Below, in pieces: positions 36,712-61,913 of a stretch of DNA of 64,000 bases; position 1 is the first letter of the stretch, and the number at the start of each line of letters is the position of its first letter. Position numbers and translations under genes: made by a program. The stretch spans positions 625,001 through 689,000 of the forward strand of contig NZ_JAATWC010000001.1 in assembly GCF_012979235.1 (NCBI RefSeq), read 5' to 3'. The notes beneath the pieces were generated by a model. The model was given only the letters and a program-made list of their open reading frames with translations. It did not search any database and had not been told where the DNA came from. The stretch comes from Dissulfurirhabdus thermomarina (GTDB lineage Bacteria; Desulfobacterota; Dissulfuribacteria; Dissulfuribacterales; Dissulfurirhabdaceae).

Positions 36712-36741
36712 TTGACAGCAGTCAAACCGGTTTGCTAGAGA
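36712..36741 (+). promoter_or_regulatory. Sigma-70-type promoter of the cytochrome locus
   Basis: TTGACA (36712-36717) with TAGAGA (36736-36741) 18 bases further on, preceded by a TG extension (TTGC). A similar GGGGGCTTGACA context occurs before perR. The promoter lies about 40 bases upstream of the first 12-heme cytochrome start. Confidence 0.6.
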
Positions 36742-36781
36742 TGGAATGAATCGCTATTCAGCCGGGAGGAAGGGGACTTCG

Positions 36782-37567
36782 ATGAGGACAGAAAAGGGCA
36801 GGCACAAGGTCTTTCTCGCTTTCGTATTCTCACTCGTTCTTCATTTTCCTGTGGCGCAGGCCATGGCCGCCGCGGCGGTCCTCCAGGATGCCGACTGCGT
36901 GAAATGCCACGACGAGCAGCCGGCCACGGTGGCGGCCAAGGGTGAAAAGCACCGGGCGGTGGGGTGCCGGGGCTGTCACCGGGAGCATCCTCCGAAGGGG
37001 GAGGACACCATCCCCGAGTGTTCCCGGTGCCACAAGGGGAAGGCCCACTTCGAACTCAAGGGGTGCCTTTCCTGCCACCGGGATCCGCACAAGCCCCTCG
37101 ACATCACCTTCGGCGACAACGTCACCGAGGCCTGCGTGACCTGCCACGCCAAGGAGGGGGCGACGCTCCACGGGAACAAGAGCGCCCACAGCGAGCAGGC
37201 CTGCAGCTTCTGCCACGAGAAGCACGGCCAGATCCCGGAGTGTTTCAAGTGCCACGAGGCCCACGTGGAGGGGCAGCAGGTCAAGGACTGCCTCGGCTGC
37301 CACCCGGCGCACTCGCCCCTGGTGATCCGCTATCCCAACGAGACGCCCACCGCCTACTGCGCGCCGTGCCACGAGGAAGAGGCCGAGCTGCTGAAGAACA
37401 CCAAGACCAAGCACGGCCAGTTCACCTGCGCCTTCTGCCACCGGGGGGTCCACCCGGTGGTGCCGCAGTGCGAGACCTGCCACGGGAAGCCCCATCCCCC
37501 CGCGCAGCACAAGATGATCCCGCGGTGCCTCGACTGCCACATGGACCCGCACAACCTGGTCAAGTAA
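36782..37567 (+). CDS. Dodecaheme c-type cytochrome, first of a tandem pair
   Basis: A 261-residue precursor with a signal peptide (residues 1-30, ending AMAAA) and twelve CXXCH motifs, one per about 19 residues: CVKCH, CRGCH, CSRCH, CLSCH, CVTCH, CSFCH, CFKCH, CLGCH, CAPCH, CAFCH, CETCH and CLDCH. Most are followed by a second histidine (e.g. CHRDPH, CHPAH), typical of bis-His c3/c7-like cytochromes. It is probably a periplasmic electron carrier feeding the outer-membrane complex. GGGAGGAAGG sets ATG 36782. A paralogous 12-heme gene follows 46 bases later. Confidence 0.88.
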   Translation: MRTEKGRHKVFLAFVFSLVLHFPVAQAMAAAAVLQDADCVKCHDEQPATVAAKGEKHRAVGCRGCHREHPPKGEDTIPECSRCHKGKAHFELKGCLSCHRDPHKPLDITFGDNVTEACVTCHAKEGATLHGNKSAHSEQACSFCHEKHGQIPECFKCHEAHVEGQQVKDCLGCHPAHSPLVIRYPNETPTAYCAPCHEEEAELLKNTKTKHGQFTCAFCHRGVHPVVPQCETCHGKPHPPAQHKMIPRCLDCHMDPHNLVK

Positions 37568-37613
37568 CCGAGAACCGGCGCGCGGCGCCGACACGAAGGG
37601 AAGGGAAGAGGGC

Positions 37614-38507
37614 ATGAGACGAGAAATCGGCAAGACGGTCACGGTGGTGTTCTTGGCGGCGGCCGGCCTGGTGCTGGCCGGGACGGGGTGCGTGGAGCAG
37701 CAGCGGGTCGCCCCGGCCCGGCAGGAGGCCGCCGTCCAGGCGAAGGCGAAGGGGGGGAGCCCCTACGACGTGGAAGTCCAGCCCCTGGAGACGGCCGAGT
37801 GCGCCCGGTGCCACATCTCCCAGTTCCGGCGGGTGCAGAAGGAGGGCGGAAAGCACCGGGCCCTCGAGTGCTCGGAGTGCCACGAGCAGTTCCACGCCTA
37901 CAACCCGCGGAAGCGGAACTACGCCGCCATCATGCCGAAGTGCGGCGCCTGCCACGACCAGCCCCACGGGCCGGCGAAGGCGGTGCAGCAGTGCCTTGCG
38001 TGTCACCAGGATCCCCACCGCCCGGTGGCCTCCCTGCCCGATCCCGCCAAGCTGGAGCGGCAGTGCCGGATCTGCCACGAGGCGATACCGAAGGCCATGA
38101 AGGCGGCGCCCAGCGCCCACCGCGACCAGCCCTGCTCCGACTGCCACTCCGACCGCCACGGGCGAAAGCCCGACTGCAGCGAGTGCCACGAGTCCCACAG
38201 CCCCGACGCCAAGCTGGACACCGCCGGGTGCCTCTCCTGCCACCCGGTCCACACCCCGCTCAAGGTCACCTACGGCGCCGACACCCCCAAGGTCATCTGC
38301 GCCGGCTGCCACGAGAAACCCTTCGAGCAACTGAAGGCCAAGGTGACCAAGCACTCCGCCTTCACCTGCGCGAAGTGCCACCCCCGGCACGGGCAGATCA
38401 AGCGGTGCCAGGAGTGCCACGGCGAGACCCCCCACAACCCGTCCATCCACAAGAAGTACCCGAAGTGCGGCAGGTGCCACAACATCGCCCACAACCTGGC
38501 CAAGTAG
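37614..38507 (+). CDS. Dodecaheme c-type cytochrome, probable lipoprotein, second of the pair
   Basis: A 297-residue protein with twelve CXXCH motifs, spaced like those of the neighbour upstream, and the same ending (C-x-x-CH-x3-HNLxK), so the two are paralogues. The N-terminus ends in LVLAGTGC (Cys26), a possible though imperfect lipobox, suggesting membrane attachment. HRALECSECHEQFHAYNP and QPCSDCHSDRHG show paired histidines. It may hand electrons between the periplasm and the beta-barrel complex. Confidence 0.87.
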   Translation: MRREIGKTVTVVFLAAAGLVLAGTGCVEQQRVAPARQEAAVQAKAKGGSPYDVEVQPLETAECARCHISQFRRVQKEGGKHRALECSECHEQFHAYNPRKRNYAAIMPKCGACHDQPHGPAKAVQQCLACHQDPHRPVASLPDPAKLERQCRICHEAIPKAMKAAPSAHRDQPCSDCHSDRHGRKPDCSECHESHSPDAKLDTAGCLSCHPVHTPLKVTYGADTPKVICAGCHEKPFEQLKAKVTKHSAFTCAKCHPRHGQIKRCQECHGETPHNPSIHKKYPKCGRCHNIAHNLAK

Positions 38508-38535
38508 CCGCTTTTCGGGCGGGCACGGAGACCAC

Positions 38536-38597: not shown

Positions 38598-39635
38598 CTA
38601 CCGGGAGGGGACCGCCTGGAAGTTCGCCTTTTCCTCCTCGGCCCCCTTGGGGGCGGGCGAGGTGGCGCCGGCGGCCGGCTCGGCCGGGGGGTGGACCTCC
38701 AGGACCTGGACGCGGTGGTTGAAGAGGTCCGCCACCAGGACGCGGCCTTCATCGTCCACCGCCACGTCCGTGGGGAAGTTGAACCACCCGGGTCCCCAGC
38801 CCTTGCCGCCGAACTCGAAGAGGTAGCGGCCGGAGAGGTCGTAGGCGAGGACCGTGTGGCGCATGTAGTCCACCACGTAGATCCGGCCCCGGGCCTCATC
38901 CAGGGCGAGGCCCCTGGGGCGGCTCATCTTGCCGGAGGAGCCGCCCTTCTGGCCGAACGAGAAGAGGAATTCCTCCTTCGCGTCGTACACGTAGACCTTG
39001 CTGGTCTCCTCGCTGAGGAGGTAGAGGCGGCTGGCGCCGTCGATGGCCACGTCGCGCACCAGGACGGGCCGCTCGCCGCTGCCCGGCGGGGTGTCCCTGG
39101 GGGTCAGCCGGTGGAGCAGGCGGCCCTCCGGCGACAGGACCAGGACGCCGACGCTGTTCTGACCGGCCACGTAGAGGCGGCCGTCCCTGGCCACGGCGAG
39201 GTGCTCCGGCAGGAAGGAGGCGGCGTCGGGGAGATCCCGGAGGGGGATTTCCCGCACCGGGAAGAAGGCGGCGTCCAGGACGGCGATCCGTGCCGGGGTC
39301 CCGGGTCCCGCCGGTCCCTGGGCCACGTAGAGCCGCCCGTCGGGCCCCAGGGCGAAGCCGGAGACGTGGTCGAGGCCCCGGCCGGCCCCCACGGAGACCC
39401 GCGGGAAGAAGTTCCGGTCGTAGACCACGACCCGGCCCCGGCTGGCGCTGAGGACGTAGGTTTCCCCCGTGTCCGGGGCGTAGGCCACGCCCCCGGGGAA
39501 GCCGATGGGCGCGCCCGAGTCGTCCACCTTCAGCTCGGCCACGGCCTTCACTGTCACGCCGCCGGCCAGGGCGGGGGGGGCGGAGAGGATCATCATCAAA
39601 ACCGTCATGAACTTGGCCATCGCTGCATGCTTCAC
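38598..39635 (-). CDS. Exported NHL-repeat beta-propeller protein
   Basis: A 345-residue protein with a signal peptide (to about residue 25, APPALA) and a propeller of six NHL-like blades. Examples are FPGGVAYAPDTGETYVLSAS, GLALDEARGRIYVVDYMRHT and FPTDVAVDDEGRVLVADLFN. A proline/alanine/glutamate tail follows. GTG 39635 is preceded by AGGAGG at ideal spacing. NHL proteins recur in this locus (52073, 57679) and are a usual companion of multiheme cytochrome conduits; they probably mediate protein contacts. It is transcribed away from the neighbouring cytochromes, from its own promoter. Confidence 0.85.
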   Translation of the reverse strand: MKHAAMAKFMTVLMMILSAPPALAGGVTVKAVAELKVDDSGAPIGFPGGVAYAPDTGETYVLSASRGRVVVYDRNFFPRVSVGAGRGLDHVSGFALGPDGRLYVAQGPAGPGTPARIAVLDAAFFPVREIPLRDLPDAASFLPEHLAVARDGRLYVAGQNSVGVLVLSPEGRLLHRLTPRDTPPGSGERPVLVRDVAIDGASRLYLLSEETSKVYVYDAKEEFLFSFGQKGGSSGKMSRPRGLALDEARGRIYVVDYMRHTVLAYDLSGRYLFEFGGKGWGPGWFNFPTDVAVDDEGRVLVADLFNHRVQVLEVHPPAEPAAGATSPAPKGAEEEKANFQAVPSR

Positions 39636-39976: not shown

Positions 39977-41071
39977 ATGAGGAGTTCGAGAATCGAGTTG
40001 TTCGGAGCGGCGGTGCTCTTCGGGGCGTTTCTGGCGTTCTCCGTCCTGGGTGCCCCCGGGGTCGCCGTGGCCAAGGTCCAGGGGCAGTGCGCCCAGTGTC
40101 ACACCATGCACAACAGCCAGAACGGCCAGAGCATCGTGAGTACCCCCAACGGGGCCCTGATCGCCACGGAAAACGGCTGCATCGGCTGCCATACCGGCAC
40201 CAACACCGGCGCCAACAACATCCCCTACATCCTGTCCACCTCTACGCCCAACTACGGCGCGACCGGCACCACGGGTGACACCCTGGCGGGCGGCAATTTC
40301 TACTTCGTGGCCACCGCCGGAAACGCCACCGACGCCGCCGGGCACAACGTGGCGGGGCTGGCGGCTTCCGATGCCCAGCTGGGACTGACCCCGCCGGGCG
40401 GGCAGGCCCTTTTGAGCCAGCTCACCTGCGCCGGCGTCAACGGCTGCCACGGCGACCGCACGAAGGCCGACGATTTCACCGCCGTCTCCGGCGCCCACCA
40501 CGGCGACGACAGCGTGCTCGACGGTTCCACCGTGGCCCAGAGCTACCGCTTCCTGCTCGGCGTCACCGGCATCGAGGACTCGGACTGGGAGTACCAGCCC
40601 ACGGTGACGGCCCACAACCAGTACAACGGGTATGACCGCGCCCAGGAGGCCGACGTCGACAACTCCACCATCAGCGCCCTCTGCGCCAAGTGTCACGGCG
40701 ATTTCCACAGCGGCGCCGGCGACCTCGGGCCTTCCGACGACGGGAGCATGCAGTCCGCCTGGATCCGCCATCCCACCGACTTCGACATGGGGAACGTGAA
40801 GAACAAGGAGTACGGCGCCTACAACGGCGGCAACAGCACCGCGGCGCCCTACAGCGTGGTGGCCCCGGTGGGGAGCGACCTCGACACGGTGCCCGGCGTG
40901 CAGCAGACGGTCTTCGACGAGGCGGACGATGCCATCGTGATGTGCCTGTCGTGCCACCGGGCCCACGCCACCCCCTACGCGGATGCCCTGCGGTGGGACT
41001 ACAGCGCCATGGTGGCGGGCAGCGGCGCGGGTAACGTCGGCTGCTTCATCTGCCACACCACCAAGGACTAA
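39977..41071 (+). CDS. Secreted multiheme cytochrome, paralogue 1 (possible extracellular/nanowire type)
   Basis: A 364-residue precursor (signal peptide to about residue 33, AVAK) with five CXXCH motifs (CAQCH, CIGCH, CAKCH, CLSCH, CFICH) and a CAGVNGCH motif that aligns with a normal heme site in the paralogue at 41203. It opens with CHTMHNSQNGQ and ends with CHRAHATPYADALRWDYS and CHTTKD, both shared with 41203 and 52952. Long glycine/asparagine/threonine-rich loops suit an extracellular protein. Low heme density and this architecture recall OmcE/OmcS-like filament cytochromes, but that is inference. AAGGAGGT lies 6 bases before the ATG, a very strong site suggesting high expression. Confidence 0.82.
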   Translation: MRSSRIELFGAAVLFGAFLAFSVLGAPGVAVAKVQGQCAQCHTMHNSQNGQSIVSTPNGALIATENGCIGCHTGTNTGANNIPYILSTSTPNYGATGTTGDTLAGGNFYFVATAGNATDAAGHNVAGLAASDAQLGLTPPGGQALLSQLTCAGVNGCHGDRTKADDFTAVSGAHHGDDSVLDGSTVAQSYRFLLGVTGIEDSDWEYQPTVTAHNQYNGYDRAQEADVDNSTISALCAKCHGDFHSGAGDLGPSDDGSMQSAWIRHPTDFDMGNVKNKEYGAYNGGNSTAAPYSVVAPVGSDLDTVPGVQQTVFDEADDAIVMCLSCHRAHATPYADALRWDYSAMVAGSGAGNVGCFICHTTKD

Positions 41072-41138: not shown

Positions 41139-41202
41139 AGGTTCGGGTGGGTATGAGGACATGCACCGGCGGCGGCCGCCGGGCACTGGGGAGCACGGGG
41201 TG

Positions 41203-42300
41203 ATGAACGGATCCTGGAGCCGGATCATCGGGGCGGTCGGCGGCGCGGCGGCGGCCGTGGCCTTCCTGGCCGCCGGCACGGCCCTGGCCCGGGTGACCGG
41301 GCCCTGTGCCAACTGCCACACCATGCACAACAGCCAGGACGGCGGACCGGTGGCCGCCGGCGGGCCGTACGCTTACCTCACCACCGACGACTGCGTCGGC
41401 TGCCACACCAACCCCAGCGGGGGGGAGACCGTGCTGGATCTCGGCGGGGGTACCCTGGTCCCCGTCGTGAACACGGCGGCCCCGCCGGTGACCCCCCTGG
41501 CGGCGGGGAACTTCTACTGGGTGCGGGGCGGCAACGACACCAAGGGACACAACTGTCTCACCGTGCCGGGCATCACCCAGGACCAGTTCCTGGCCAAGGC
41601 GCCGGGCACCAGCCGGGGGGGGCCGCAATGCATGGCCTGTCACGGGCGGATCTCCAACTGCGAGAGCTGCCACACGCCCCGCCACCACGCCGACGACTCA
41701 GGTTCCGGGCCGGTGGGGGAGGCCGGCGGCTGGTACCGCTTCCTCAACTCGAGCGCCCATGGCCAGAGCGACACCGGCGTCATCGGGATCGAGGACGCCG
41801 ACTGGGAGCACACCGTCTCCGCCGCCGACCACAACGAGTATCGGGGGACGACGAACGCCTATGGAATCGACGACAATTCCATGAGCAACTACTGCGGGGG
41901 ATGCCACGACCAGTTCCACGGGATCCTGTGGACGGACGGCTCCAACCCGGACAACCATTCGCCCTGGTTCCTGCACCCCACGCACCTGGCGTTGGCCGAC
42001 ACGGACCCCGGCAAGGAGTACCACTTCTACAACACGGCCAACGGCACCGCCCCGGGGCCGTACAATCCCCTCGTGCCGGTGGCCAGGGACCCGGGGCGCC
42101 TCGCCGGCATGACCGGGCCGGACGCCCAGGTGTACGTGGCGGCGGGCGAGGCCCAGGGCGACCAGGTGATGTGCCTGTCGTGTCACCGGGCCCATGGCAG
42201 TCCCTATGACGACATGCTCAGGTGGGATTACCAGGCTTGCGACGCCGGGAGTCCCTCGGCGGACTGCGGCTGCTTCGTCTGCCACACCAGCAAGGATTAG
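41203..42300 (+). CDS. Secreted heptaheme cytochrome, paralogue 2
   Basis: A 365-residue precursor with a signal peptide (to about residue 29, TALA) and seven CXXCH motifs: CANCH, CVGCH, CMACH, CESCH, CGGCH, CLSCH and CFVCH. It shares CHTMHNSQDG at the N-terminus and CHRAHGSPYDDMLRWDYQ...CHTSKD at the C-terminus with 39977 and 52952. It carries an extra CESCHTPRHH site, and its CMACHG replaces their CX5CH motif. Probably extracellular. The ATG at 41203 is preferred over 41161 because it is followed directly by a good signal peptide. Confidence 0.82.
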   Translation: MNGSWSRIIGAVGGAAAAVAFLAAGTALARVTGPCANCHTMHNSQDGGPVAAGGPYAYLTTDDCVGCHTNPSGGETVLDLGGGTLVPVVNTAAPPVTPLAAGNFYWVRGGNDTKGHNCLTVPGITQDQFLAKAPGTSRGGPQCMACHGRISNCESCHTPRHHADDSGSGPVGEAGGWYRFLNSSAHGQSDTGVIGIEDADWEHTVSAADHNEYRGTTNAYGIDDNSMSNYCGGCHDQFHGILWTDGSNPDNHSPWFLHPTHLALADTDPGKEYHFYNTANGTAPGPYNPLVPVARDPGRLAGMTGPDAQVYVAAGEAQGDQVMCLSCHRAHGSPYDDMLRWDYQACDAGSPSADCGCFVCHTSKD

Positions 42301-44460: not shown

Positions 44461-44491
44461 TAAAATGGTCGAAGAAAGGAGAGCCTCTTAC

Positions 44492-45106
44492 ATGACGGAG
44501 GAAAGAAGGCCCGGGCGGTCCACCCGAGCGGTCCGGTGGCTGGCGGCGGGGTTGCTCGCCATGTCCCTTGCGGCCTGCGGGGCCGTCACCGGGGTCCGGC
44601 ACTTCACCCGGGAGGGCACGGATCTCGGCTACGTGCAGCGCGTGGCGGTCCTCCCCTTCGAGACGCCCGAGCAGGGAGACTTTTCCGGGGAGCGGGCACG
44701 GGATTTCACCATCACCCAGGGTCTGGCCATGGGCCGTTTCGACGTGGTGGACAAGGGCCTCGTGGACAGCGTGCTGCGCGAAGAGGCGGTGCAGCCGGGA
44801 ACCCCGCTGGATCTCGCGACGCTCAAGCGGCTGGGCAAGCGCCTGAACGTCCAGGCCTTCCTCATGGGAACCGTGGACCAGGAAGGCGAGGGCAAGCGGG
44901 GGGCCTTCCGGTTCCCGGAGATCGCCCTCACCCTCCGCCTGGTGGACGCCGGGACGGGGGCGGTGCTCTGGCGGGCCAGCGGCCACGGCAGCGGCTACAG
45001 CCTCCTCGGGCGCCTCTTCGGCCTCGCCCCGCGGAACTCGTTCCAGGTGGGCATGGACCTCGTGGGTGACCTCCTGCGGACCTTGCCCACGCGGCGGGGA
45101 GGATGA
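44492..45106 (+). CDS. Lipoprotein with CsgG/GNA1162-like fold
   Basis: A 204-residue lipoprotein, lipobox SLAAC (Cys29). The mature part begins with VQRVAVLPFETPEQGDFSG and continues DVVDKGLVDSVLREE and LGKRLNVQAFLMGTV. This is the pattern of CsgG-N/GNA1162-type periplasmic lipoproteins, which build or recruit outer-membrane complexes. It starts 31 bases after the beta-barrel. Similar openings occur in the products of 45114 and 46661, so three related proteins lie in a row. ATG 44492 is preferred to 44465 because AAAGGAG lies in front of it. Confidence 0.7.
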   Translation: MTEERRPGRSTRAVRWLAAGLLAMSLAACGAVTGVRHFTREGTDLGYVQRVAVLPFETPEQGDFSGERARDFTITQGLAMGRFDVVDKGLVDSVLREEAVQPGTPLDLATLKRLGKRLNVQAFLMGTVDQEGEGKRGAFRFPEIALTLRLVDAGTGAVLWRASGHGSGYSLLGRLFGLAPRNSFQVGMDLVGDLLRTLPTRRGG

Positions 45107-46661: not shown

Positions 46662-47290
46662 TGCGGACCGTTCGTGGACGGGCGGCATGCCGGCTCCGGG
46701 CCGCGACGGGGCTCGGCCTCCTCGGCCTGGCCCTGCTCTCGGCCCCGGGCTGCAGCGGGCTGCCGGCGGTCCACGAGCTGGCGCCGCTGCCCGCCGCCGG
46801 GGCGTGCCGCGTGGCGGTCTTGCCTTTCCGGAACGAGACGCGCTACCCTGTGGGGGCGGTCCTCGTGTACCGGGTCTTCCTGGCCGAGCTGGTCCAGGCC
46901 GGCCGGTTCGACGTGGTCCAGGAGGGGGACGTCCGGGAGGTGCTCCGCGGGCACCTCCGGCTGCTTCCGGGCCAGGATCCTCTGTGGGAGCACATGCCCA
47001 TCCTCCATGACCGCCTCGGCGCCGACCTCGTGGTTTCGGGACGGGTCATGGAGATGGACGACCAGGGCCGCGGCGGCGGGGTGAACCCCGTTTTGGCCAT
47101 CCGCCTCGAGATCCGGGACGGGGCCAGCGGCCGGCTCCTGTGGGAGACCTACCACCGCCGGGACGGCCAGCACTACCGGAAGGTGTTGCACTTCGGGTTG
47201 ATCAATTCCATGACGGCGCTGGCCCGGCAGATGGCCCGGGAGGTACTGGACGAGTGGACGAAAAGGGGGCTCCGGGGATGTACCGGGTGA
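46661..47290 (+). CDS. Third CsgG/GNA1162-like protein, probable lipoprotein
   Basis: A 209-residue exported protein; hydrophobic N-terminus ending LLSAPGC (Cys31), a weak lipobox. The mature domain has CRVAVLPFRNETRYPVGAVL, FDVVQEGDVREVL and LGADLVVSGRVMEMD, the clearest GNA1162/CsgG-N-like pattern of the three. It overlaps the gene before by one base and the peptidyl-prolyl isomerase by 13 bases, so all are translated from one message. Confidence 0.7.
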   Translation: MRTVRGRAACRLRAATGLGLLGLALLSAPGCSGLPAVHELAPLPAAGACRVAVLPFRNETRYPVGAVLVYRVFLAELVQAGRFDVVQEGDVREVLRGHLRLLPGQDPLWEHMPILHDRLGADLVVSGRVMEMDDQGRGGGVNPVLAIRLEIRDGASGRLLWETYHRRDGQHYRKVLHFGLINSMTALARQMAREVLDEWTKRGLRGCTG

Positions 47291-52951: not shown

Positions 52952-54001
52952 ATGAACGGGACGAGATGCGGAGTGTTCCTGGCGCTGGCGGCCGTGCTGG
53001 CCGCGGCGCCCGCCGCCGCCAAGGTCACGGGCCCCTGTGCCGCCTGCCACACCATGCACAACAGCCAGAACGGGCTCTCGGTGGTGGGCGGGGGGCCGAT
53101 ACCGGGGCTGCTCAACGCGGACTGCCTCGGTTGCCACACCGGTTCCAACGCCGGGGGCACGACCCCCTACGTCTTCAGCCAGAGCGCCCCGGCCTACGGA
53201 ACCAGCGGCACCGAGGCGACCACCACCACTCTCGCCGGGGGCAATTTCTACTGGGTGGCCAACGGGAACCCCAGGGCCGGCCACAACGTCCAGGGCGCGG
53301 CGCCGCCGGACCCGGACCTCGGCAACACCCCGCCGGGAGGAACGGCCCTTTCCACCCAGCTCAACTGCGCCGGGACCAACGGCTGCCACGGCCGGCGCAG
53401 CGATGCCGACCCGTACCGGGACATGTTCGGGGCCCACCACCAGAACGACATGACCGGCTGGAAGGACGGGACCTCGCTGGCCCGGAGCTACCGGTTCCTC
53501 ATGGGGGTCCAGGGCCTCGAGGACGCGGCCTACGAGTTCCGGCCCACGGCCGCGGGGCACCACAACAAGTACTACGGCGTGGACAGGGCCACGGAGGCCG
53601 ACGCGGCGGGCACCCTGAGTTCCCTCTGCGGCTCGTGCCACGGCGACTTCCACCACGGCACGGGCCAGGTGGCCTCCGGGACCTTCGGGGCCGGGGCCTG
53701 GCTCCGGCACCCCACGGACTTCGACATGTCCCGGGCCACCACCAGCGGGGAGTACGCCGGCTACAACGGCGGCGGCGGCACCGGGAACCCCTACAGCGTG
53801 GTGAGCCCCGTGGCCACCTCGGACACCTCCACGACCCTCAATACCACGGTCTACTCCCAGGCGGGGGACGCCGTGGTGATGTGCGCCTCCTGCCACCGGG
53901 CCCACGGAACGCCCTTCGCCTACGCCCTGCGGTGGGACTACCGGAGCTGGCCCGGCGGGGGGACCAACGGCTGTGCCGTGTGTCATACCAGCAAGGACTG
54001 A
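52952..54001 (+). CDS. Secreted multiheme cytochrome, paralogue 3
   Basis: A 349-residue precursor (signal peptide ending APAAAK, residue about 25) with five CXXCH motifs (CAACH, CLGCH, CGSCH, CASCH, CAVCH) and one CAGTNGCH motif. It is close to the product of 39977 throughout: CHTMHNSQNG, LAGGNFYWVANGN, the CX5CH block, SYRFLMGVQGLED, WLRHPTDFDM, the closing CHRAHGTPFAYALRWDY and CHTSKD. The duplication is therefore within the locus. Likely extracellular. GAGGTG lies upstream of the ATG. Confidence 0.82.
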   Translation: MNGTRCGVFLALAAVLAAAPAAAKVTGPCAACHTMHNSQNGLSVVGGGPIPGLLNADCLGCHTGSNAGGTTPYVFSQSAPAYGTSGTEATTTTLAGGNFYWVANGNPRAGHNVQGAAPPDPDLGNTPPGGTALSTQLNCAGTNGCHGRRSDADPYRDMFGAHHQNDMTGWKDGTSLARSYRFLMGVQGLEDAAYEFRPTAAGHHNKYYGVDRATEADAAGTLSSLCGSCHGDFHHGTGQVASGTFGAGAWLRHPTDFDMSRATTSGEYAGYNGGGGTGNPYSVVSPVATSDTSTTLNTTVYSQAGDAVVMCASCHRAHGTPFAYALRWDYRSWPGGGTNGCAVCHTSKD

Positions 54002-54399: not shown

Positions 54400-55839
54400 A
54401 TGCGTGAGAAGGGACTCCACAGCGCGCTGGGCGGCTGCCTGCGCGGGTTCGCCGCGGTTGGGCTGGCCCTCGTCCTGGCGGCCTGCAGCCTGGTGGAAGA
54501 AGCAGGTCCCCGGCCGGGTGCGTCCACCCCCGGGGGGCCGGACGGCGGCGGCCGCCTCTCGGTGTACTTCCAGCTGGCGGCGCCCGCCGCCGCCAGGGTC
54601 CGGTTCGAGCTCTCCGGCCTCGAGATCCGCAGCGGCGCGGAGTGGCTGCCGCTCTCGGGGGAGACCGTCACCGTGGACACCGAAATCCTCGGCGGCGGGC
54701 AGGTGCTCCTGGCGAGCCGGCTGCTGCCCCCCGGGCCCTTCGAAGGGTTCCGGTTCCGGGTCGCCGGGGCCGTCCTGGTGCGCCCGGGCGGGGCCGTGCC
54801 CCTCCGGGTTCCCGAGCCGGAGGTCCGGGTGCCCCTCCACGTCCGGGTCTCGGCCGGGGACAGCCGGTGCGTCTTCCTGTCCCTCGACACGGACCGTTCC
54901 GTCCAGGGGCAGGCCGCCTTCGTGCCCGCCGTCTCGGCGGTCCGCCAGGAGATCCCCCTCATCGAGGACCTCGCCTACGTGGCCTGCCCGGGCATCGATA
55001 CCGTGGCGGTGGTCCGGACCGACACCAACCGGGTGGCCGCCACCCTCGGGGTCGCCGGGGCGCCCTCCTACCTGGCGGTGGACCGGGATCGCTCCCGGTT
55101 GTACGTCCTCGCGGGGGCCGAGACCGCCATCAAGGTCTTCGATCTCACCAGCGGCCGGCTCGTGGACGTGATCCGGGTGCCCATCGCCCGGTCCCCGGCG
55201 TTCATGGCCGTGAACGCGGACCGGACCGCGGCGGTGCTCCTGGACGAGGAGGGCCACTACGTCCTGCGCCTCGCCCTCCCGGATGGGACCTTGGAGGCCC
55301 GCTCCCGGGTGGGTTTCCGGCCCCGGTACGCCGCCTTCCTGGAGGAGGCGGGCCACCTGGCGGTCTCCTCCGGGATGTCCCAGGAGGTGGTCCTGCTGGA
55401 CCCGGAGACCCTCTCGACGCGCCAGGAGATCTCCGCCGGCGGGATCCCGGAGGGCCTGGCCGAGGTGGGCGGCCGGCTCTTCGTGGCGGAGACCACGGCG
55501 GACACCCTGGCGGTGGTCGACCTCTCCCAGGGGCGCGTGGAGCGCCGGGTGAACGTGGGGCGGACCCCGAGGCGCCTCCTGGCCGCCGGGGCGCACCTCT
55601 TCCTCGCCAACCACTTGTCCGGTACGGTGTCCGTCCTGTTGCCGGGGCAGGCCACCGTGACCCAGGAGATCCGCGTGGGCGGCCGTCCCCTGGAGATGGG
55701 GGCCTCGGAGCGCCAGCGCCGGCTCTACGTGGGGGACCAGGGCGGCCGGGCGCTGGTGGTGGTGGGGCTCACGTCGCTCCGGGTGGACCGGCGCATCCCG
55801 CTCCCCGGCGTTCCGGTGGGGATCGCCGTCCTGCGCTAG
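54400..55839 (+). CDS. YVTN-type beta-propeller lipoprotein
   Basis: A 479-residue lipoprotein (lipobox LVLAAC, Cys29). Residues about 45-165 form a beta-sandwich-like domain (LSVYFQLAAPAAARVRFELS) of the DUF4382 kind. The rest is a propeller with YVTN-type repeats: GIDTVAVVRTDTNRVAATLG, APSYLAVDRDRSRLYVLAG and GGRLFVAETTADTLAVVDLS. GGAGGCGGG precedes ATG 54400. The stop overlaps the stop of the converging radical SAM gene. It is separated from the cytochrome by repeat DNA but is probably part of the same locus; likely a surface or outer-membrane contact protein. Confidence 0.75.
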   Translation: MREKGLHSALGGCLRGFAAVGLALVLAACSLVEEAGPRPGASTPGGPDGGGRLSVYFQLAAPAAARVRFELSGLEIRSGAEWLPLSGETVTVDTEILGGGQVLLASRLLPPGPFEGFRFRVAGAVLVRPGGAVPLRVPEPEVRVPLHVRVSAGDSRCVFLSLDTDRSVQGQAAFVPAVSAVRQEIPLIEDLAYVACPGIDTVAVVRTDTNRVAATLGVAGAPSYLAVDRDRSRLYVLAGAETAIKVFDLTSGRLVDVIRVPIARSPAFMAVNADRTAAVLLDEEGHYVLRLALPDGTLEARSRVGFRPRYAAFLEEAGHLAVSSGMSQEVVLLDPETLSTRQEISAGGIPEGLAEVGGRLFVAETTADTLAVVDLSQGRVERRVNVGRTPRRLLAAGAHLFLANHLSGTVSVLLPGQATVTQEIRVGGRPLEMGASERQRRLYVGDQGGRALVVVGLTSLRVDRRIPLPGVPVGIAVLR

Positions 55840-57308
55840 CCGCCGGACCGGCCGGCCAGCCGGGCCACCAGGAGCCGTACCTGCTGGGGCATCCCGCCGA
55901 GGTCGCCGTGGTGGCGCTTCAGGTACGAGTTCTCCATGATGGCCTCCATCCCCCGGAGTAGGCACTCCCGCTTGAGGTCGTTTCCCTCCATCTCTAGCCA
56001 GGCCGGGAGCTTTTCCATGTAGAACTCCCGGTAGCAGGCCAGGACCAGTTCCTTGAGGCGCTTGCGGGAGAGGGCCCTGGGGCGGATGACCGGCTCCACC
56101 AGGTTGTACTTGGCGTAGTCGTGTTCCGCCACGTGGGGGGCGAGTTCCGGGTAGAGCCCCGCGTAGGGCCAGGGGGCCAGCAACAGGAAGTGCATGTAGT
56201 CGGGGTCGTAGTAGCGGGCCAGCTCCAGGGCCTCCCGGACGGAGGCCTCGGTCTCGTCGGGCGTTCCCAGGATGAGGGCGCTCTCGGCGATCATCCCCGC
56301 CCCCTTGATGAGGTCGATGGCCCGTTTCGCGGCCCGGATCTCCACGTCCTTTTGGAAGAAGGCCAGGCGTTCCGGTGTCCCGGCCTCCACCCCCACGTAG
56401 ACGAACAGGATGCCGGCCTCCCTGTACCTGTCCATGATGTCCGCGTCCCGGAGGATGTCCGACGTGCACGTCTCGATGAGGAGGTGCACCGGGAGGCGGC
56501 GCGCCGCCAGGAGGTCCAGGATCCGTTCCCAACGGGCCCGGTCCCGGGTGGGGACCTCGTCGGCCACGAAGAAGACGTTGACGCCGTAGCCCCGGTACAA
56601 TGATTCGATCTCGGCCACGAAGCGTTCCGGCCTCCTGGCGCGCCACGTGCCTTGCCAGAAGAGGTGCTGGGAGCAGAAGGCGCAACGGTTGGTGCAGCCC
56701 CGGGAGGAGTTCAGGATGGCCACCCGGGCGCCGTCCATGAAGTAGAGGGGGTAGTCGTCCCAGTCCACGAGGTCCCAGGCGGGCGCCAAGGTGTCGAGGT
56801 CCGCCACGAGGGGCCGGGGGGCGGTCCGGACCGGGCGGCCGCCCCGGCGGAAGGCGATGCCCCGGACCGCCCCGGGGTCGCCCCCGTCGCGAAGGGCCGC
56901 GAGGAGTTCCGGAAGCGTCCGCTCGCCCTCGCCCAGCACGCAGAAGTCCACGCAGTCGCCGTGGGCCGTGAGGGTCTCTTCCCACATGAAGGTGGGGTGG
57001 ATGCCGCCCGCCAGGGTGGTGATCGCGGGGTCGACGGCCTTGGCCGCCCGGAGGACCTCCAGGGCGGCGGGGAAGGTGGCGGTGTAGGCGCTGGTGGCCA
57101 CGAAGGCCGGCCGCTCCGCCTCGATCCGGCGCCGGATGGCCTCCAGGTCGTCGAAGCGCGACATGGCGTCGTGGATCACGGGGTGGAACCCGGCCTTTCG
57201 GGCCTCGCCCGCCAGGTAGATGAACCCGAGGTGCGGCCAGCGGCCGGCGGATTCCAGGACGCCGCAGTGGTAGGGCGGTGTGACGAAGAGGACCTTGGGC
57301 CGGTTCAC
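55836..57308 (-). CDS. B12-binding radical SAM protein
   Basis: A 490-residue enzyme with an N-terminal cobalamin-binding-like Rossmann domain (KVLFVTPPYHCG, FVATSAYTATFPAAL, TTLAGGIHPTF) and a radical SAM core with SSRGCTNRCAFCSQ (Cys205, 209, 212). Motifs FFVADEVPTRD and YVGVEAGTPERL follow. The canonical DxHxxG B12 signature is not evident, so cobalamin use is uncertain. Such enzymes often methylate or rearrange lipids, peptides or tetrapyrroles; the substrate is unknown. The GTG start overlaps the small membrane protein stop by 4 bases. It is the last gene of the minus-strand operon. Confidence 0.8.
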   Translation of the reverse strand: MNRPKVLFVTPPYHCGVLESAGRWPHLGFIYLAGEARKAGFHPVIHDAMSRFDDLEAIRRRIEAERPAFVATSAYTATFPAALEVLRAAKAVDPAITTLAGGIHPTFMWEETLTAHGDCVDFCVLGEGERTLPELLAALRDGGDPGAVRGIAFRRGGRPVRTAPRPLVADLDTLAPAWDLVDWDDYPLYFMDGARVAILNSSRGCTNRCAFCSQHLFWQGTWRARRPERFVAEIESLYRGYGVNVFFVADEVPTRDRARWERILDLLAARRLPVHLLIETCTSDILRDADIMDRYREAGILFVYVGVEAGTPERLAFFQKDVEIRAAKRAIDLIKGAGMIAESALILGTPDETEASVREALELARYYDPDYMHFLLLAPWPYAGLYPELAPHVAEHDYAKYNLVEPVIRPRALSRKRLKELVLACYREFYMEKLPAWLEMEGNDLKRECLLRGMEAIMENSYLKRHHGDLGGMPQQVRLLVARLAGRSGG

Positions 57309-57682
57309 CGCGCCGGCCCCCGCCTGGAGAGGATGCGCCCGGCCAGCACGTGGACCCGGACGACGAGCACGGCCAGCGCCAGGAACAGGGCGTGCTTCGC
57401 CGCGAGCAGGACGACCTGGCCGCCGCCCGCCGCGTCCACCCACTCGAACCGGCGGTAGGCGGCCAGGCGCACGAGGCCGAAGACCACCACCCCGGACAGC
57501 GCCCACCAGAAGAGGGCCCGCAGCCGCGACAGGATCCGCCGGAACGGGGGCGGGACGTCGAAGGGCCCCGATCGGCGCCATTCCAGCAGCAGGAGGGCCT
57601 CCACCGCCGCCACCGACAGCCAGAGGGCCGCGGAGAAGTCGTGGGCGAAGTTGTTGGCCAGGACGAGGAGCCGGAGCGTCAC
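57305..57682 (-). CDS. Small integral membrane protein, function unknown
   Basis: A 125-residue protein with about three membrane helices (residues 3-30, 55-73, 90-113). The first includes LVLANNFAHDFSAALWLSVA with a histidine near residue 14, and a second histidine (AAKHALF) lies in the third. These could ligate heme b or simply line the membrane. The GTG overlaps the NHL stop and the stop overlaps the radical SAM start, 4 bases each, so it is a real operon member. No family is recognised with confidence. Confidence 0.7.
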   Translation of the reverse strand: MTLRLLVLANNFAHDFSAALWLSVAAVEALLLLEWRRSGPFDVPPPFRRILSRLRALFWWALSGVVVFGLVRLAAYRRFEWVDAAGGGQVVLLAAKHALFLALAVLVVRVHVLAGRILSRRGPAR

Positions 57683-58665
57683 CGCTGGTCCTCCTCCCAC
57701 ACCAGGATCCGGCCGCCGCCGGCCGCATCGGTCACGTAGATCTCCCCGGTGCCGGGGTCGGCGGCGAGGTCCGTGGGCCGTCCGGGGCCGCCCTCGGCCC
57801 AGGCATCGGTCCCGTAGGCGCCGAGCCGGCGCCCCATGAAGTCGTAGAGGTAGATCCGGCGCCGCTTCATATCGAGCACGTGGAACCGGCGCCGCCCGTC
57901 CAGGGCCATGGCGCCGGGGATCTCCAGGGGGCCGCCCGCCGGGTCGTCGAAGAAGTAGGCGAACCGGCCGTTGCAGGTGAAGACGGCCACCTTGCCGAGG
58001 CCGGCGTCGCCCACGAGGATGCGGCCGTCCGGGGCCTGGAGGACGCTCACCGGCCGGCGCAGGCGCGCCGGGCCGTTGCCCGGGCCGCCGACCTCGAGCA
58101 GCGCGTCTCCCCGGGGGGCGAAGACCTGGACGGTGCGCCCTGCGCCGTCGGCCACCAGGAGGTTGCCGCCGCCCACGGCCACCGCCAGCGGGAGCCCGGG
58201 CGCCGGGCCGCCCCGGGCCGGGAAGGGGGCCGGCCGGCCCGCCGGGTCCCGCATCCAGACGGAGAGGCCCGCCGCGTCGGCCACGTAGACCCGGCCGGCC
58301 GGGTCCACGGCGAGGTCCACGGGGTCGGCGCCGGGGTGGGGGGTGAAGGGCCGGCGTTCCAGCAGGCGGCCGTCGGTGTCCAGGACCGCCACGGTGTTTT
58401 GCCCCCGGCAGGCCACCAGGAGGCGCCCGCCGTGGAAGGCCACGGCCTGGGGCCCGGGGCAGGGGGCGGCGATCCGGCGCACGAGCCGCGGCGGGCCGGC
58501 ATGCGCGGCGCGGGCCGCGGCGGGCGGGCACGCGAGCAGGGCCAGGAGGGCCGGGAAGGCGCAGGCGCAGGCCTTGACGTATCCGCGGCGGACCCCGAAC
58601 GGGCCGGCCGGCCGTGGATGGCCGGGCATCCCGGGGCGCCGCCGCGCGAGGCCGGCGGGCTTCAT
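57679..58665 (-). CDS. Exported NHL-repeat protein
   Basis: A 328-residue protein; the hydrophobic stretch VKACACAFPALLALLAC (residues about 30-46) acts as signal peptide or anchor. Blades of an NHL-type propeller follow, such as PVDLAVDPAGRVYVADAAGL, RPVSVLQAPDGRILVGDAGL and PTDLAADPGTGEIYVTDAAG. The ATG at 58665 overlaps the ccsA stop (ATGA). The 30-residue arginine/proline-rich leader is unusual, so a later start is possible. It is the third NHL protein in the locus. Confidence 0.78.
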   Translation of the reverse strand: MKPAGLARRRPGMPGHPRPAGPFGVRRGYVKACACAFPALLALLACPPAAARAAHAGPPRLVRRIAAPCPGPQAVAFHGGRLLVACRGQNTVAVLDTDGRLLERRPFTPHPGADPVDLAVDPAGRVYVADAAGLSVWMRDPAGRPAPFPARGGPAPGLPLAVAVGGGNLLVADGAGRTVQVFAPRGDALLEVGGPGNGPARLRRPVSVLQAPDGRILVGDAGLGKVAVFTCNGRFAYFFDDPAGGPLEIPGAMALDGRRRFHVLDMKRRRIYLYDFMGRRLGAYGTDAWAEGGPGRPTDLAADPGTGEIYVTDAAGGGRILVWEEDQR

Positions 58666-59444
58666 GGCCCCGGCCGGCCCGGGTGGACCGGGATGTGGGG
58701 CACGCCCCAGAAGGTGTAGACGATGGAGGCGAAGGCCGCCAGGCTCACCGCGGCCAGGCGCCGCCCGTGCCAGCCGAGGAAGGCCCGGGCGTGCAGGAAG
58801 AAGGCATAGAGGAGCCAGGTGGCGAGGCTCCAGGTCTCCACCGGGTCCCAGCTCCAGTAACGGCCCCAGGCGTTCGCCGCCCAGACGGCCCCAGAGGCCA
58901 GCATGGCGGCGTGGAAGACGAAGCCGTGGGCGGCGAGGCGGAAGGCCAGGTCCTCGAGCCGGTCCGGCCCGGGCAGGCGTTCCCGGCGCCTCGGGGGCAG
59001 GAGGAGGGCGGCGGCTGCCGCGGTGGAGGTCACGTAACAGCCGTAGGCGGCGAAGGCCGCCAGGACGTGGACGGCGAACCAGCCGCTCCGGTATTCCTCG
59101 GCCAGGGGCGCCGGGGCGTGGGGGTGGGCGGCGCCGTAGAGGAGGAGGGCCAGGGCGGCCGCCGTTGCGAAGAGCCCGAGGTGGCGGGTGCCGGGATAGC
59201 GCCGCTGGATCCACAGGTAGACGGCCATGGCGAGGAAGGCCCCGACGAGGTTGAGCTCGTAGAGGTCGGCCCCGGGCATGTGGCCGGCGGCGTGCCACCG
59301 GAGGGCCAGGGCCGCGCCGTGGGCGAGGAGGCCGAGGCCCAGGGCCGGCACGGCGGGCCGGCCCCGGCGGCCGGGCAGGGCGAGGAGGACGAGCCCCGCG
59401 CCGTAGAGACCGACGGCGGCGGCGAAGGCGGCTTGTTCAGGCAC
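58662..59444 (-). CDS. ccsA: Cytochrome c assembly protein CcsA/ResC type
   Basis: A 260-residue protein with about eight membrane helices and the heme-handling WWD motif WGRYWSWDPVETWSLATW near residue 195. Histidines in HAAGHM, WFAVHVLAAF and AHGFVFHAAML are placed like the heme ligands of the family. With ResB it forms the System II synthase that attaches heme to CXXCH sites outside the membrane. GGGAGGA precedes GTG 59444. Its presence inside a locus with 90 heme sites suggests dedicated or boosted maturation. Confidence 0.9.
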   Translation of the reverse strand: MPEQAAFAAAVGLYGAGLVLLALPGRRGRPAVPALGLGLLAHGAALALRWHAAGHMPGADLYELNLVGAFLAMAVYLWIQRRYPGTRHLGLFATAAALALLLYGAAHPHAPAPLAEEYRSGWFAVHVLAAFAAYGCYVTSTAAAAALLLPPRRRERLPGPDRLEDLAFRLAAHGFVFHAAMLASGAVWAANAWGRYWSWDPVETWSLATWLLYAFFLHARAFLGWHGRRLAAVSLAAFASIVYTFWGVPHIPVHPGRPGP

Positions 59445-60492
59445 GGTGCTGGATCCTCCCCGGGCATCGGTCTCGGCCGGGGGGCGGGGCGAGGTACGCG
59501 CGGGCCGCCAGGGCCCCCAGCCCGACGATGAATCCAACATAAACCAGGGGCATCCCGGGGTCACGCACCAGGCGGAAGGCGCTCCACCGGCGCACGCCGC
59601 CCATGGACAGGGTGGCGCCGGGGAGGCGCACCGGCCGGCCCGGGCGGAGGACCCCCGAGAAGAGCACCGCGCCGTCCCGCGACACAGTCACCCGGGCCCG
59701 GTCCGGGGGGGCGTCCCCGCCGGTAGCCGGGAGGGTGACGCCCACGGTGAAGGGGAGGCCCGGCGGGCGGAAGGCGTCCCGGTGGCCGGATCGGACCGTC
59801 CCGCCGGCCGCGGCGGACCGGAGCGCCACGAAGGCGCTGAACCGGACACGGCCGAGGTCGTCCCGGACGGTGAAGGAGGGGGCGAAGCCGTGCTCCAGGC
59901 CGTAGACCCGGACCCCGTCCAGGTCGGCGGGGTGGAAGGGCCGGACGGCCTGCGTGTGGCGGCGGCGGACCAGCCGGACGGGCCCCGCCCCGGGCCGGGG
60001 CACGACGCGGACCAGCCGGAACCGGAAGCCCCCCGGGAGGCCCACGGGCAGGAGGGGCCGCCGGGTGACGGAAAGCCCCGCGGCCCCCTCCCGGAGGAGC
60101 TCGCCCTCGGTGAGGACGGCCCGTGCCTCGTACCGACCCAGGGCGGAGCCGAGCCCCCCGGCGGCCACCAGGAGGAGGCTCGCGTGGAAGGCCACGGAGG
60201 CCCAGGCGGCGCGCGTGCCGCCGCCCGGCAGGCGCCGGGCCCGGCGCACGGTGCACGAGGCGAGGGCGTAGCACAGGAGCGCCAGGAGGGCCGGGAGGAC
60301 CCCGCCCCGGGGCATGCGCCCGATGCCGAGGAGGTCGAGGAGGGCGGCCAGGCGGCGATGGCCGCCGAGGAAGCGGGCCAATGCCCCCGGATCGGGGAAG
60401 GCGGCCTGGAGGAGCGCCCCGGCGGCCAGGAGCACCGCGCAGGCGGCCATCGCCCACGACACGGCGCGGCGGGAGGCGACAGCCGCGTCCAC
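59437..60492 (-). CDS. ResB/Ccs1-like cytochrome c biogenesis protein
   Basis: About 351 residues with the ResB plan: two or three N-terminal membrane helices (SWAMAACAVLLAAGALLQAAF; VLPALLALLCYALASC; ASVAFHASLLLVAAGGLGSALG), a large periplasmic beta-domain (about 140-310), and a final helix (PLVYVGFIVGLGALAARAYL). The histidine in VAFHASLL is a likely heme ligand. The sequence is divergent and short compared with classical Ccs1. The stop overlaps ccsA by 8 bases. The start is uncertain: the frame runs on upstream without an ATG, and GTG 60492 is the first good candidate after the cytochrome stop at 60537. Confidence 0.78.
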   Translation of the reverse strand: MDAAVASRRAVSWAMAACAVLLAAGALLQAAFPDPGALARFLGGHRRLAALLDLLGIGRMPRGGVLPALLALLCYALASCTVRRARRLPGGGTRAAWASVAFHASLLLVAAGGLGSALGRYEARAVLTEGELLREGAAGLSVTRRPLLPVGLPGGFRFRLVRVVPRPGAGPVRLVRRRHTQAVRPFHPADLDGVRVYGLEHGFAPSFTVRDDLGRVRFSAFVALRSAAAGGTVRSGHRDAFRPPGLPFTVGVTLPATGGDAPPDRARVTVSRDGAVLFSGVLRPGRPVRLPGATLSMGGVRRWSAFRLVRDPGMPLVYVGFIVGLGALAARAYLAPPPGRDRCPGRIQHRA

Positions 60493-60536
60493 CCGGCGCC
60501 AGGCCGCCGGGAGCCTTCGCCACGCGGGCCCGGGGC

Positions 60537-61880
60537 CTACCAGGGTTTCCCCCCGTTCATGGAGCCGCAGGCGTCCACCCCCGCCGAGGCGGCCCAGCAG
60601 GTGCCGTCCCCGTCGGCCCCCCCGTGGTAGTTGTCGAGGCGGATGCCGAGGAGGTAGCCCCCCAACAGGAGGTGGTCGGCCGGGTTCGAGGTGTAGCCCG
60701 TGCAGGTCTGCTTGCCGCTGCCCGGGTTGCTCCACATGAAGTGTTCGCCGTGGACGGCGGCGGTGCGCCCGCCGTTGTCCTGCTCGGCCACCGGGGGCGG
60801 GCAGGCGAGGGCGGTGTAGTCGGCCCGCCCCGGAGGGCCCCCGTGGCAGGCCCGGCACCCCAGGGAATTCTGGCCGGCCCCGTCGCCCTCGTACTGGTGG
60901 GCGGCGTTGCTGCCGTGGGACCAGGGCGAGCCCGGCGCCGTCCCGCCGTCGTAGGTGTCCACGTGGCAGAGGAGGCACAGGTTGTCGTAACACTCGGCGG
61001 CGTTGGGGTTGGTGCGGGCCCCCCAGGCCCGGAGCATGTAGCGGGTGTTGGAGCCGTGGGGGCCGCGGGGGGTGCCGGCGGGGTTGCCGTGGCAGTCCGT
61101 GCACTTCAGGTGGGCGTTGGGCGCCGAGTTCCAGGGCGGCTTGAGGTTCACGGTGTAGTTGGCGAGGATGTTGGGGTTCTGCCAGTCGGAGAGGACCGGG
61201 TGGTGGGCGTAGTTGCCGGGGTTGAAGTGGGCCGCCACGTCGCCGCCCGCCACCGGGCCTCCGTTGTAGGTGGAATGGCACTTGAGGCAGAGCTGGTATT
61301 CCTTCGAGATGGGATCCCGGGCGGTGTAGCCGGTGGCGGAGGCCAGGGTCTCCTGGCCCGGGGAGGGGGTGCCCGGCAGGGAGAAGCCGTCCGGCTCCAC
61401 GCCGGCCGCGCCCACCACGGCGCCCGTGGCGTTGTTGTCCTCGGCGGCGGGGTTCCGGGTGGGGATGCGCTGCGCCCGATGCGGGTCGTGGCAGTCCACG
61501 CAGAGCACGGGACCGGGCGCCGAGGAGGGGGAGTGGGCGTAGGCCTTGGTGGTCTCCGTGGCGATGTCGGCGTGGCAGGTGGCGCAGAAGGCGTTGTCCG
61601 TCTCGGCGGTGAAGAGGAGGTACTTGCTGGGTCCGCCGTCGGCCGGGAGCGGCTCCGCCCCGCCGAGGCTGGCGTGCTGCTCGTGGCAGTGCGAGCAGTT
61701 GCCGCGGGCGAAGGCCGAGTACGCCGGGTCCACGGCGGAGCGGTCCACGCCGTAGGTGCTGCTGCCGTGGGCCGAGCTGGTATAATCCCCTGCAGCCGCC
61801 CCGGCGGGGACGGCCAGGAGGCCGGCGGCCACCAGGGCCCGGAGGGCCGGGGTCCGGAGATGGGAAACGGCGATACCCAC
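60537..61880 (-). CDS. Heptaheme c-type cytochrome heading the maturation operon
   Basis: A 447-residue precursor; starting at GTG 61880 gives a clean signal peptide (VSHLRTPALRALVAAGLLAV, cut near AAAG). Seven CXXCH motifs: CSHCH, CATCH, CVDCH, CLKCH, CTDCH, CLLCH and CRACH. The last 100 residues have none but contain several other cysteines. Long polar glycine/asparagine-rich loops suggest a surface location. An upstream ATG at 61913 lies before the promoter -10 and is therefore unlikely. It does not share the TMHNSQ or RAHG signatures of the other secreted cytochromes. Confidence 0.82.
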   Translation of the reverse strand: MGIAVSHLRTPALRALVAAGLLAVPAGAAAGDYTSSAHGSSTYGVDRSAVDPAYSAFARGNCSHCHEQHASLGGAEPLPADGGPSKYLLFTAETDNAFCATCHADIATETTKAYAHSPSSAPGPVLCVDCHDPHRAQRIPTRNPAAEDNNATGAVVGAAGVEPDGFSLPGTPSPGQETLASATGYTARDPISKEYQLCLKCHSTYNGGPVAGGDVAAHFNPGNYAHHPVLSDWQNPNILANYTVNLKPPWNSAPNAHLKCTDCHGNPAGTPRGPHGSNTRYMLRAWGARTNPNAAECYDNLCLLCHVDTYDGGTAPGSPWSHGSNAAHQYEGDGAGQNSLGCRACHGGPPGRADYTALACPPPVAEQDNGGRTAAVHGEHFMWSNPGSGKQTCTGYTSNPADHLLLGGYLLGIRLDNYHGGADGDGTCWAASAGVDACGSMNGGKPW

Positions 61881-61886
61881 AAAACA

Positions 61887-61913
61887 ATTATACCATGCCA
61901 CGGTGCCGCTCAA
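61887..61913 (-). promoter_or_regulatory. Extended -10 promoter, leaderless start predicted
   Basis: On the minus strand TGGTATAAT (61895-61887) is a consensus extended -10, with TTGAGC (61913-61908) 15 bases upstream. The GTG of the heptaheme cytochrome begins only 6 bases after the -10, so transcription should start at or next to the start codon. Confidence 0.7.

Follow-up and report, generated by a model that had tools for sequence, protein, structure and literature searches.

Two convergent multiheme cytochrome gene units in Dissulfurirhabdus thermomarina: an oet-type cluster and a recurrent ResB/CcsA/radical SAM cassette

The 64,000-nucleotide stretch analysed here from the genome of the sulfur-metabolising bacterium Dissulfurirhabdus thermomarina (bases 625001-689000 of contig 1, G+C 73%; hereafter the window) carries a large locus of multiheme cytochrome genes that quite likely consists of two units lying tail to tail: an oet-type electron conduit, and a separate cassette for the maturation or modification of one cytochrome. 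The first unit (36746-55839) is well supported by homology and gene order as an oet/OmcS-type cluster, a kind already described from Dissulfuribacterales and from the partner bacteria of anaerobic methanotrophic archaea (ANME). The second (55836-61880) is, as judged from its gene content and distribution, distinct from oet and forms a recurrent cassette encoding a multiheme cytochrome, ResB, CcsA, a CopD-like protein, an NHL propeller and a BchE-like radical S-adenosylmethionine (SAM) protein. The oet half adds one more member to a described group; the cassette is the more important and surprising half.

An earlier note on this DNA, made from the sequence alone, had read the locus as one complete extracellular electron-transfer module. 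Gene calls and translation confirmed its eight multiheme cytochromes, with 12, 12, 5 (+1), 7, 26, 16, 5 (+1) and 7 CXXCH motifs (90 in all), and the outer-membrane barrel, three NHL proteins, propeller lipoprotein, PPIC isomerase, ResB, CcsA and B12-binding radical SAM enzyme were present as claimed. The assignment to extracellular electron transfer is well supported for the plus-strand block by homology and synteny with oet/OmcS-type clusters. The single module did not survive comparison: ResB, CcsA, CopD-like and radical SAM genes occur in 0 of 14 related oet loci, and the cassette recurs without oet. The proposal that ResB and CcsA belong to oet was dropped because both are absent from all 14 of these loci.

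Gene calls were based on codon use, open reading frame (ORF) lists and translation across the window, and domain families were assigned by Pfam and NCBIfam searches of the window proteins. For gene order, every protein of the window was searched against relatives by tblastn; the class comparison comprised this genome (2.46 Mb in 34 contigs, 99% complete, the only one of its family) and 45 others, all 46 belonging to one order.

The plus-strand oet-type cluster

The oet cluster (OetABI, OmcX, OmcS-like and Apc2a proteins) has been described in ANME partner bacteria and their relatives, with the Dissulfurirhabdus OetI placed beside those of Seep-SRB2 and Thermodesulfobacteria (PMC10553843). A core of six-bladed propeller, 16-heme, 26-heme and peptidyl-prolyl isomerase (PPIase) proteins was defined previously (PMC5539420), and a D. 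thermomarina genome with a 26-heme protein is published (PMC7478628). In the window, the gene for the 26-heme lipoprotein adjoins that for a secreted 16-heme cytochrome, a large barrel is encoded in the same operon, and the core PPIase and six-bladed propeller are present. Members of the class, named Thermodesulfobacteria and Desulfobulbaceae, and other metagenome-assembled genomes (MAGs) share the order barrel, PelC-like 1, FlgD-Ig protein, PelC-like 2, PPIase, 26-heme, 16-heme, NHL, OmcS-like; an 8-heme protein and the propeller lipoprotein often come next. Homologues also occur in named Desulfofervidaceae and Desulfuromonadales MAGs. The comparison of gene order that the earlier note had called for thus recovered a conserved core of barrel, 26-heme protein, lipoprotein/FlgD-Ig trio and PPIase, with the ccs/radical SAM block lying outside it. 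The trio and the PPIase accompany the barrel and 26-heme gene in 14 of 14 loci. The co-occurrence of the trio with System II genes, which had been thought unusual, is not what sets this locus apart; the unusual combination is that of System II with a BchE-like radical SAM protein and a di-cysteine-tailed cytochrome. Within the class, the barrel is found in 10 of 46 genomes. The 26-heme gene gains a signal peptide and lipobox when its start is moved to the in-frame ATG at 48899, the probable start, and its homologues in relatives (32-48%) have lipobox-like starts and adjoin the 16-heme gene.

Three small cytochromes of this unit are OmcS homologues by profile comparison: a 21-sequence profile matched OmcS (6EF8) in the PDB with E=2.5e-25, the next match being at 0.022, whereas single-sequence phmmer/PDB searches with two of the OmcS-like proteins did not find OmcS. 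One is 57-59% alike to barrel neighbours in loci L050 and L056, and another 61-67% alike to its positional counterparts in L052, L055, L056, L057 and L062. OmcS-like membership rests on the profile, and the OmcX-like label of the upstream 12-heme pair on heme number and arrangement alone; homologues of these 12-heme genes stand beside the other 12-heme gene and the first NHL gene in L063 and L034, and an OmcX pair with 11 and 12 hemes is on record (PMC5539420). The cytochromes noted as "5+1" do contain five CX2CH motifs each, and the additional site proved to be a conserved CX5CH, with a putative heme. At the third heme site of the alignment, most OmcS-like members have CxGxxGCHG, hence CX5CH, and others CX2CH; among 42 distinct sequences submitted to a strict segment test, 29 have CX5CH and 9 CX2CH, and 4 were not parsed. 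A literature search returned no paper using the term "CX5CH", and a CX5CH site conserved in an OmcS family would widen the range of known heme-attachment motifs. Elsewhere in this genome, another OmcS-like gene lies near the window (G000:C1:707220-708293), and OmcS-like fragments occur at both ends of contig 9 (G000:C9:14-136 and G000:C9:116065-116178); additional OmcS-like copies probably break the assembly.

The AlphaFold2 (AF2) model of the barrel (mean confidence, pLDDT, 77) has about 28 long strands and a predicted inserted beta domain at residues ~250-395. This insertion is conserved in Desulfobulbaceae barrels and shorter in those of Thermodesulfobacteria. When Foldseek matches were ranked by E-value, many TonB-type barrels stood at the top; by TM-score, MtrB (6r2q_B) was highest among the 50 PDB matches listed (0.43/0.45, against at most 0.41 on either scale for the others). 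A single-sequence PDB search yielded nothing useful, and the barrel has no Pfam or NCBIfam match to the MtrB/PioB family, the resemblance being one of fold only. The model thus supports a conduit-sized barrel but gives no ground for placing it in the MtrB family; homologous barrels occupy the same place in relatives.

The trio downstream of the barrel had been described as CsgG/GNA1162-like; the CsgG part of this reading was dropped. The CsgG family PF03783 was detected in this genome on contig 6 only, and the Pfam matches of the trio to GNA1162-like (0.011) and LpoB (0.0019) families are weak, both below cut-off, with neither seen for the FlgD-Ig protein. Profiles of relatives instead matched PelC: for the first lipoprotein, profile A2 matched PelC structures 5t11 (7.1e-6) and 5t0z (1.1e-4) ahead of GNA1162 (4hrv, 2.6e-3), and for the second, profile A4 matched PelC 9h80_C (1.9e-7). 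On these profile matches the two lipoproteins are PelC homologues; the FlgD-Ig protein has weak PelC/LpoB similarity. In the Pel system the PelC ring sits under the PelB barrel, and a ring can hence be proposed for the trio as well. The PelC match thereby offers a testable idea for this constant trio, namely an outer-membrane ring that might help to build or hold the conduit or to export its filaments.

The convergent cassette

Beyond its absence from the related oet loci, several features set the minus-strand unit apart. Homologues of its ResB are absent from the other 45 class genomes, its radical SAM protein was not found in 14 named oet genomes, and tblastn of related oet loci gave no homologue of the third NHL protein. 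Additionally, a paralogous cassette is present on contig 5 of the same genome (L083, G000:C5:14000-30000, at 6103-12861), with a 7-heme cytochrome (35%), ResB, CcsA (35%) and a radical SAM protein (51%), followed by a LuxE-like gene. In the phylum sample of 395 genomes, close relatives of the radical SAM protein occur in 12, this one included; in 9 of these 12, which represent several families, ResB-CcsA is encoded nearby, usually together with the CopD-like gene. In one locus (L109) the cassette abuts an oet barrel, and in another (L113) its neighbours are OmcS-like and 12-heme genes.

For replication, 40 new close radical SAM loci and 16 lower-scoring comparison loci, the latter not neutral as a control set, were drawn from a class with the radical SAM protein in 77 of 277 genomes. 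Neighbouring ResB, CcsA or CopD-like genes were found in 35 of the 40 close loci. CcsA accompanied 26/40 close and 2/16 distant radical SAM genes (p=7.8e-4), and the CopD-like gene 30/40 and 5/16, respectively (p=4.9e-3). Many relatives additionally encode a LuxE-like ligase along with a second B12 radical SAM protein. In the loci L149-L168 and L185-L204 a frequent order is CcsA, second B12 radical SAM, LuxE-like ligase, CopD-like, BchE-like radical SAM, an arrangement that may represent a small biosynthetic pathway. The literature search found no paper combining the parts of the cassette, most subscription journals being outside its reach; the cassette, versions of which occur in many Desulfobacterota genomes, is recurrent and apparently undescribed.

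The cytochrome encoded just upstream of ResB bears a C-terminal non-heme di-cysteine tail, in 7-, 9-, 16- and 19-heme proteins alike. In the discovery set, 8 of 8 cassette cytochromes have the tail, compared with 1 of 119 other multiheme tails. The tail had been noticed post hoc, and new loci were therefore fetched and scored by a mechanical rule: 11 of 14 ResB-adjacent cytochromes carried it as opposed to 2 of 23 others (Fisher p=2.6e-5). A profile of the 7-heme family retrieved weak generic cytochrome matches only from the PDB.

The window radical SAM protein has a B12-binding domain and an invariant CX3CX2C motif. Its best NCBIfam match is TIGR02026 (BchE), at 375 bits, below the cut-off of 481, with the next family at ~122; the BchE scores obtained span 375-410 bits and the next ~120-145. 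The substrate of BchE is a porphyrin, which makes heme a fair guess as the target by analogy; a polypeptide target is equally likely. Many of the lower-scoring radical SAM relatives, often in tandem pairs, have a single in-frame TGA (for example G107:C2:29206, G322:C1:1884877, G638:C9, G612:C18, G628:C95 and G682:C1), which suggests a selenocysteine-containing radical SAM subfamily.

Proposed functions and alternatives

The plus-strand unit most likely encodes an outer-membrane electron conduit, in which the 16-heme protein would lie in or under the ~28-strand barrel, the 26-heme lipoprotein would form its outer cap, and OmcS-family cytochromes would form filaments that prolong it, the 12-heme OmcX-like pair providing further carriers or wires. 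Against the inner face of the outer membrane, the PelC-like lipoproteins probably assemble into an oligomeric ring; folding would be assisted by the isomerase and the propellers. In the second unit, an accessory ResB-CcsA synthase would place heme on the 7-heme di-cysteine-tailed protein, whose polypeptide or heme the BchE-like radical SAM and small CopD-like proteins would modify or handle. A more far-reaching reading, which we put forward tentatively as possible though doubtful, would make the cassette a cytochrome c maturation system not described before. In it, a BchE-like radical SAM protein, an accessory CcsBA and a small CopD-like membrane protein would modify the heme or polypeptide of a di-cysteine-tailed multiheme cytochrome, joined in many relatives by a LuxE-like ligase and another B12 radical SAM protein. 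Should one tagged cytochrome indeed be the target of both a radical SAM enzyme and a dedicated synthase, CXXCH counting would miss modified hemes or residues in some extracellular cytochromes. Gene content, homology, synteny, the tail and the recurrence of both units are read directly from sequence, whereas localisation, filament and ring formation, the direction of electron flow and all of the chemistry of the second unit are inferences.

Several observations weigh against this picture of two units. ResB does not discriminate between close (20/40) and distant (6/16) radical SAM loci (p=0.55), 12 of the 40 close loci have neither ResB nor CcsA, and the tail is missing from three ResB-adjacent cytochromes of the new loci. 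The related loci are also non-independent, and the statistics ignore kinship. For the conduit, AF2 gave a poor model of an OmcS-like protein (pLDDT 50), unsuitable for a fold search, and among Geobacter OmcS homologues wire formation is known for OmcS alone (PMC12977616).

Among the alternatives, one concerns only direction and is compatible with the proposed anatomy: the locus might take up electrons, or make contact with partner cells or elemental sulfur, instead of exporting electrons to minerals, which we rate a serious possibility falling somewhat short of an even chance. Direction is not readable from sequence, and OmcS in Geobacter exports electrons; dsrA, however, is present in all 46 genomes of the class. 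Homologous clusters have been credited with bringing electrons into sulfate reducers by direct interspecies electron transfer (PMC10553843), and Ward et al. propose a role in sulfur disproportionation for the Dissulfurirhabdus 26-heme protein (PMC7478628). It is unlikely that the cassette merely reflects unrelated genes that often lie together in cytochrome-rich genomes and share no function. The presence of several ResB genes per genome, the equal ResB frequencies noted above and the close loci lacking ccs genes would all fit such an arrangement, yet the cassette genes overlap in the window, two copies exist in this genome, CcsA and CopD-like genes do distinguish close from distant radical SAM loci, and the di-cysteine tail tracks the ResB-adjacent cytochrome. 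Least probable is a single module with a System II pair dedicated to the oet cytochromes, perhaps owing to the CX5CH site. In its favour, the units are adjacent and convergent, CX5CH prevails in OmcS-like proteins, and other bacteria do possess CcsA-type synthases dedicated to unusual heme motifs. Against it, ResB and CcsA are missing from the locus in relatives that have the same CX5CH OmcS-like genes, the window ResB is without homologues in the other class genomes, and the cassette encodes a cytochrome of its own and is also found apart from oet.

Gene layout and comparison with known systems

Two converging operons had been proposed. The convergence holds, but the locus comprises at least three transcription units, because the minus-strand gene for the first NHL protein lies inside the plus block. 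Of the proposed translational coupling of nearly all genes, the minus block is tightly coupled (overlaps of 4-8 bp, with an 86-bp gap after the 7-heme gene); in the plus block several junctions have gaps (356 and 398 bp).

Table 1. Genes of the two units, with window coordinates and principal evidence
Feature	Coordinates	Strand	Evidence
12-heme cytochrome, OmcX-like pair member 1	36746..37567	+	12 CXXCH
12-heme cytochrome, OmcX-like pair member 2, possible lipoprotein	37614..38507	+	12 CXXCH; partial DmsE-like match
NHL beta-propeller 1	38598..39620	-	PF01436 1.3e-19; kept beside 12-heme pair in relatives
OmcS-family hexaheme cytochrome, 5 CX2CH + 1 CX5CH (heme at CX5CH putative)	39977..41071	+	OmcS profile match
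OmcS-family cytochrome, 7 CX2CH	41161..42300	+	alignment (57-59% matches); synteny
Outer-membrane beta-barrel, OetI-type, 696 aa	42370..44460	+	AF2, Foldseek, synteny
PelC-like lipoprotein 1	44465..45106	+	lipobox LAAC; PelC profile match
Secreted protein with PelC/LpoB-like (weak) N-domain and FlgD-Ig	45195..46661	+	PF13860 4.6e-10
PelC-like lipoprotein 2	46661..47290	+	PelC profile match
Parvulin-type peptidyl-prolyl isomerase (PPIC)	47278..48930	+	PF13145 8.7e-27, two stretches
26-heme cytochrome lipoprotein, OetB-type	48899..50842	+	26 CXXCH; lipobox VAAC
16-heme cytochrome, OetA-type, predicted periplasmic	50839..52026	+	16 CXXCH; signal peptide, no lipobox
NHL/six-bladed propeller 2 (oet core)	52073..52942	+	PF01436 3.5e-18; synteny
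OmcS-family hexaheme cytochrome, 5 CX2CH + 1 CX5CH (heme at CX5CH putative)	52952..54001	+	OmcS profile match; synteny (61-67% matches)
YncE-like propeller lipoprotein (oet-associated)	54400..55839	+	TIGR03866/TIGR02276; lipobox LAAC; synteny
BchE-like B12-binding radical SAM protein	55836..57308	-	PF02310, PF04055; TIGR02026 375 bits
Small CopD/DUF2214-like membrane protein	57305..57682	-	PF05425 0.0028; conserved NNFxHD, KH motifs
NHL propeller 3	57679..58665	-	PF01436 2.9e-15; homologue in L107 cassette
CcsA-type cytochrome c synthase subunit	58662..59444	-	PF01578 4e-30; WGxxWxWD present; TIGR03144 154 bits, below equivalog cut-off 187.6
Short ResB	59437..60450	-	PF05140 1.9e-11
7-heme cytochrome, C-terminal di-cysteine tail GTCWAASAGVDACGSM	60537..61880	-	7 CXXCH; cassette-specific tail

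Apart from the eight locus cytochromes, no called ORF of the window has more than 8 CXXCH motifs. Two further multiheme cytochromes, with 5 and 8 CXXCH, are encoded at 16332-17675 and 17762-19234, near rubrerythrin-, desulfoferrodoxin- and rubredoxin-like genes. Divergent from the cassette, at 61988-63397, lies a gene for a beta-CASP metallo-beta-lactamase-fold nuclease, whose top NCBIfam match is the type VII CRISPR Cas14 model (402 bits, below the cut-off of 800).

The first unit shares with described oet clusters the core genes, the large barrel beside the 16- and 26-heme genes, and the OmcS-like and 12-heme OmcX-like cytochromes; it differs in having three OmcS-like genes, the 12-heme pair and first NHL gene upstream, and a convergent ccs/radical SAM cassette seen in none of the compared oet loci. 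Several OmcS-family hexaheme genes also stand in one operon in Geobacter sulfurreducens (omcS/omcT/GSU2501; PMC12977616), which likewise encodes a 26-heme protein, GSU2495, whereas the proteins described here are remote from Geobacter OmcS, being detected by profile only, and have CX5CH at heme 3. MtrCAB of Shewanella (6R2Q) similarly combines a large barrel with multiheme partners, and MtrB gave the best TM-score among the matches listed, yet the present barrel is without an MtrB-family sequence match and the heme numbers here are 16 and 26. As in the PelBC polysaccharide export complex, PelC-like lipoproteins are encoded beside a large outer-membrane barrel; here, however, there are two PelC-like genes and an Ig-bearing relative, the barrel belongs with cytochromes, and the cluster has no Pel synthesis genes.

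For the cassette, BchE, the Mg-protoporphyrin ester cyclase, is by far the closest NCBIfam family to the radical SAM protein, which departs from it in scoring below the family threshold and in that no chlorophyll genes were seen in the fetched neighbourhoods. Finally, the cassette resembles System II (CcsBA/ResBC) in its ResB and CcsA Pfam matches and the WGxxWxWD motif, and departs from it in its short ResB, co-encoded BchE-like radical SAM protein, CopD-like protein and di-cysteine-tailed cytochrome.

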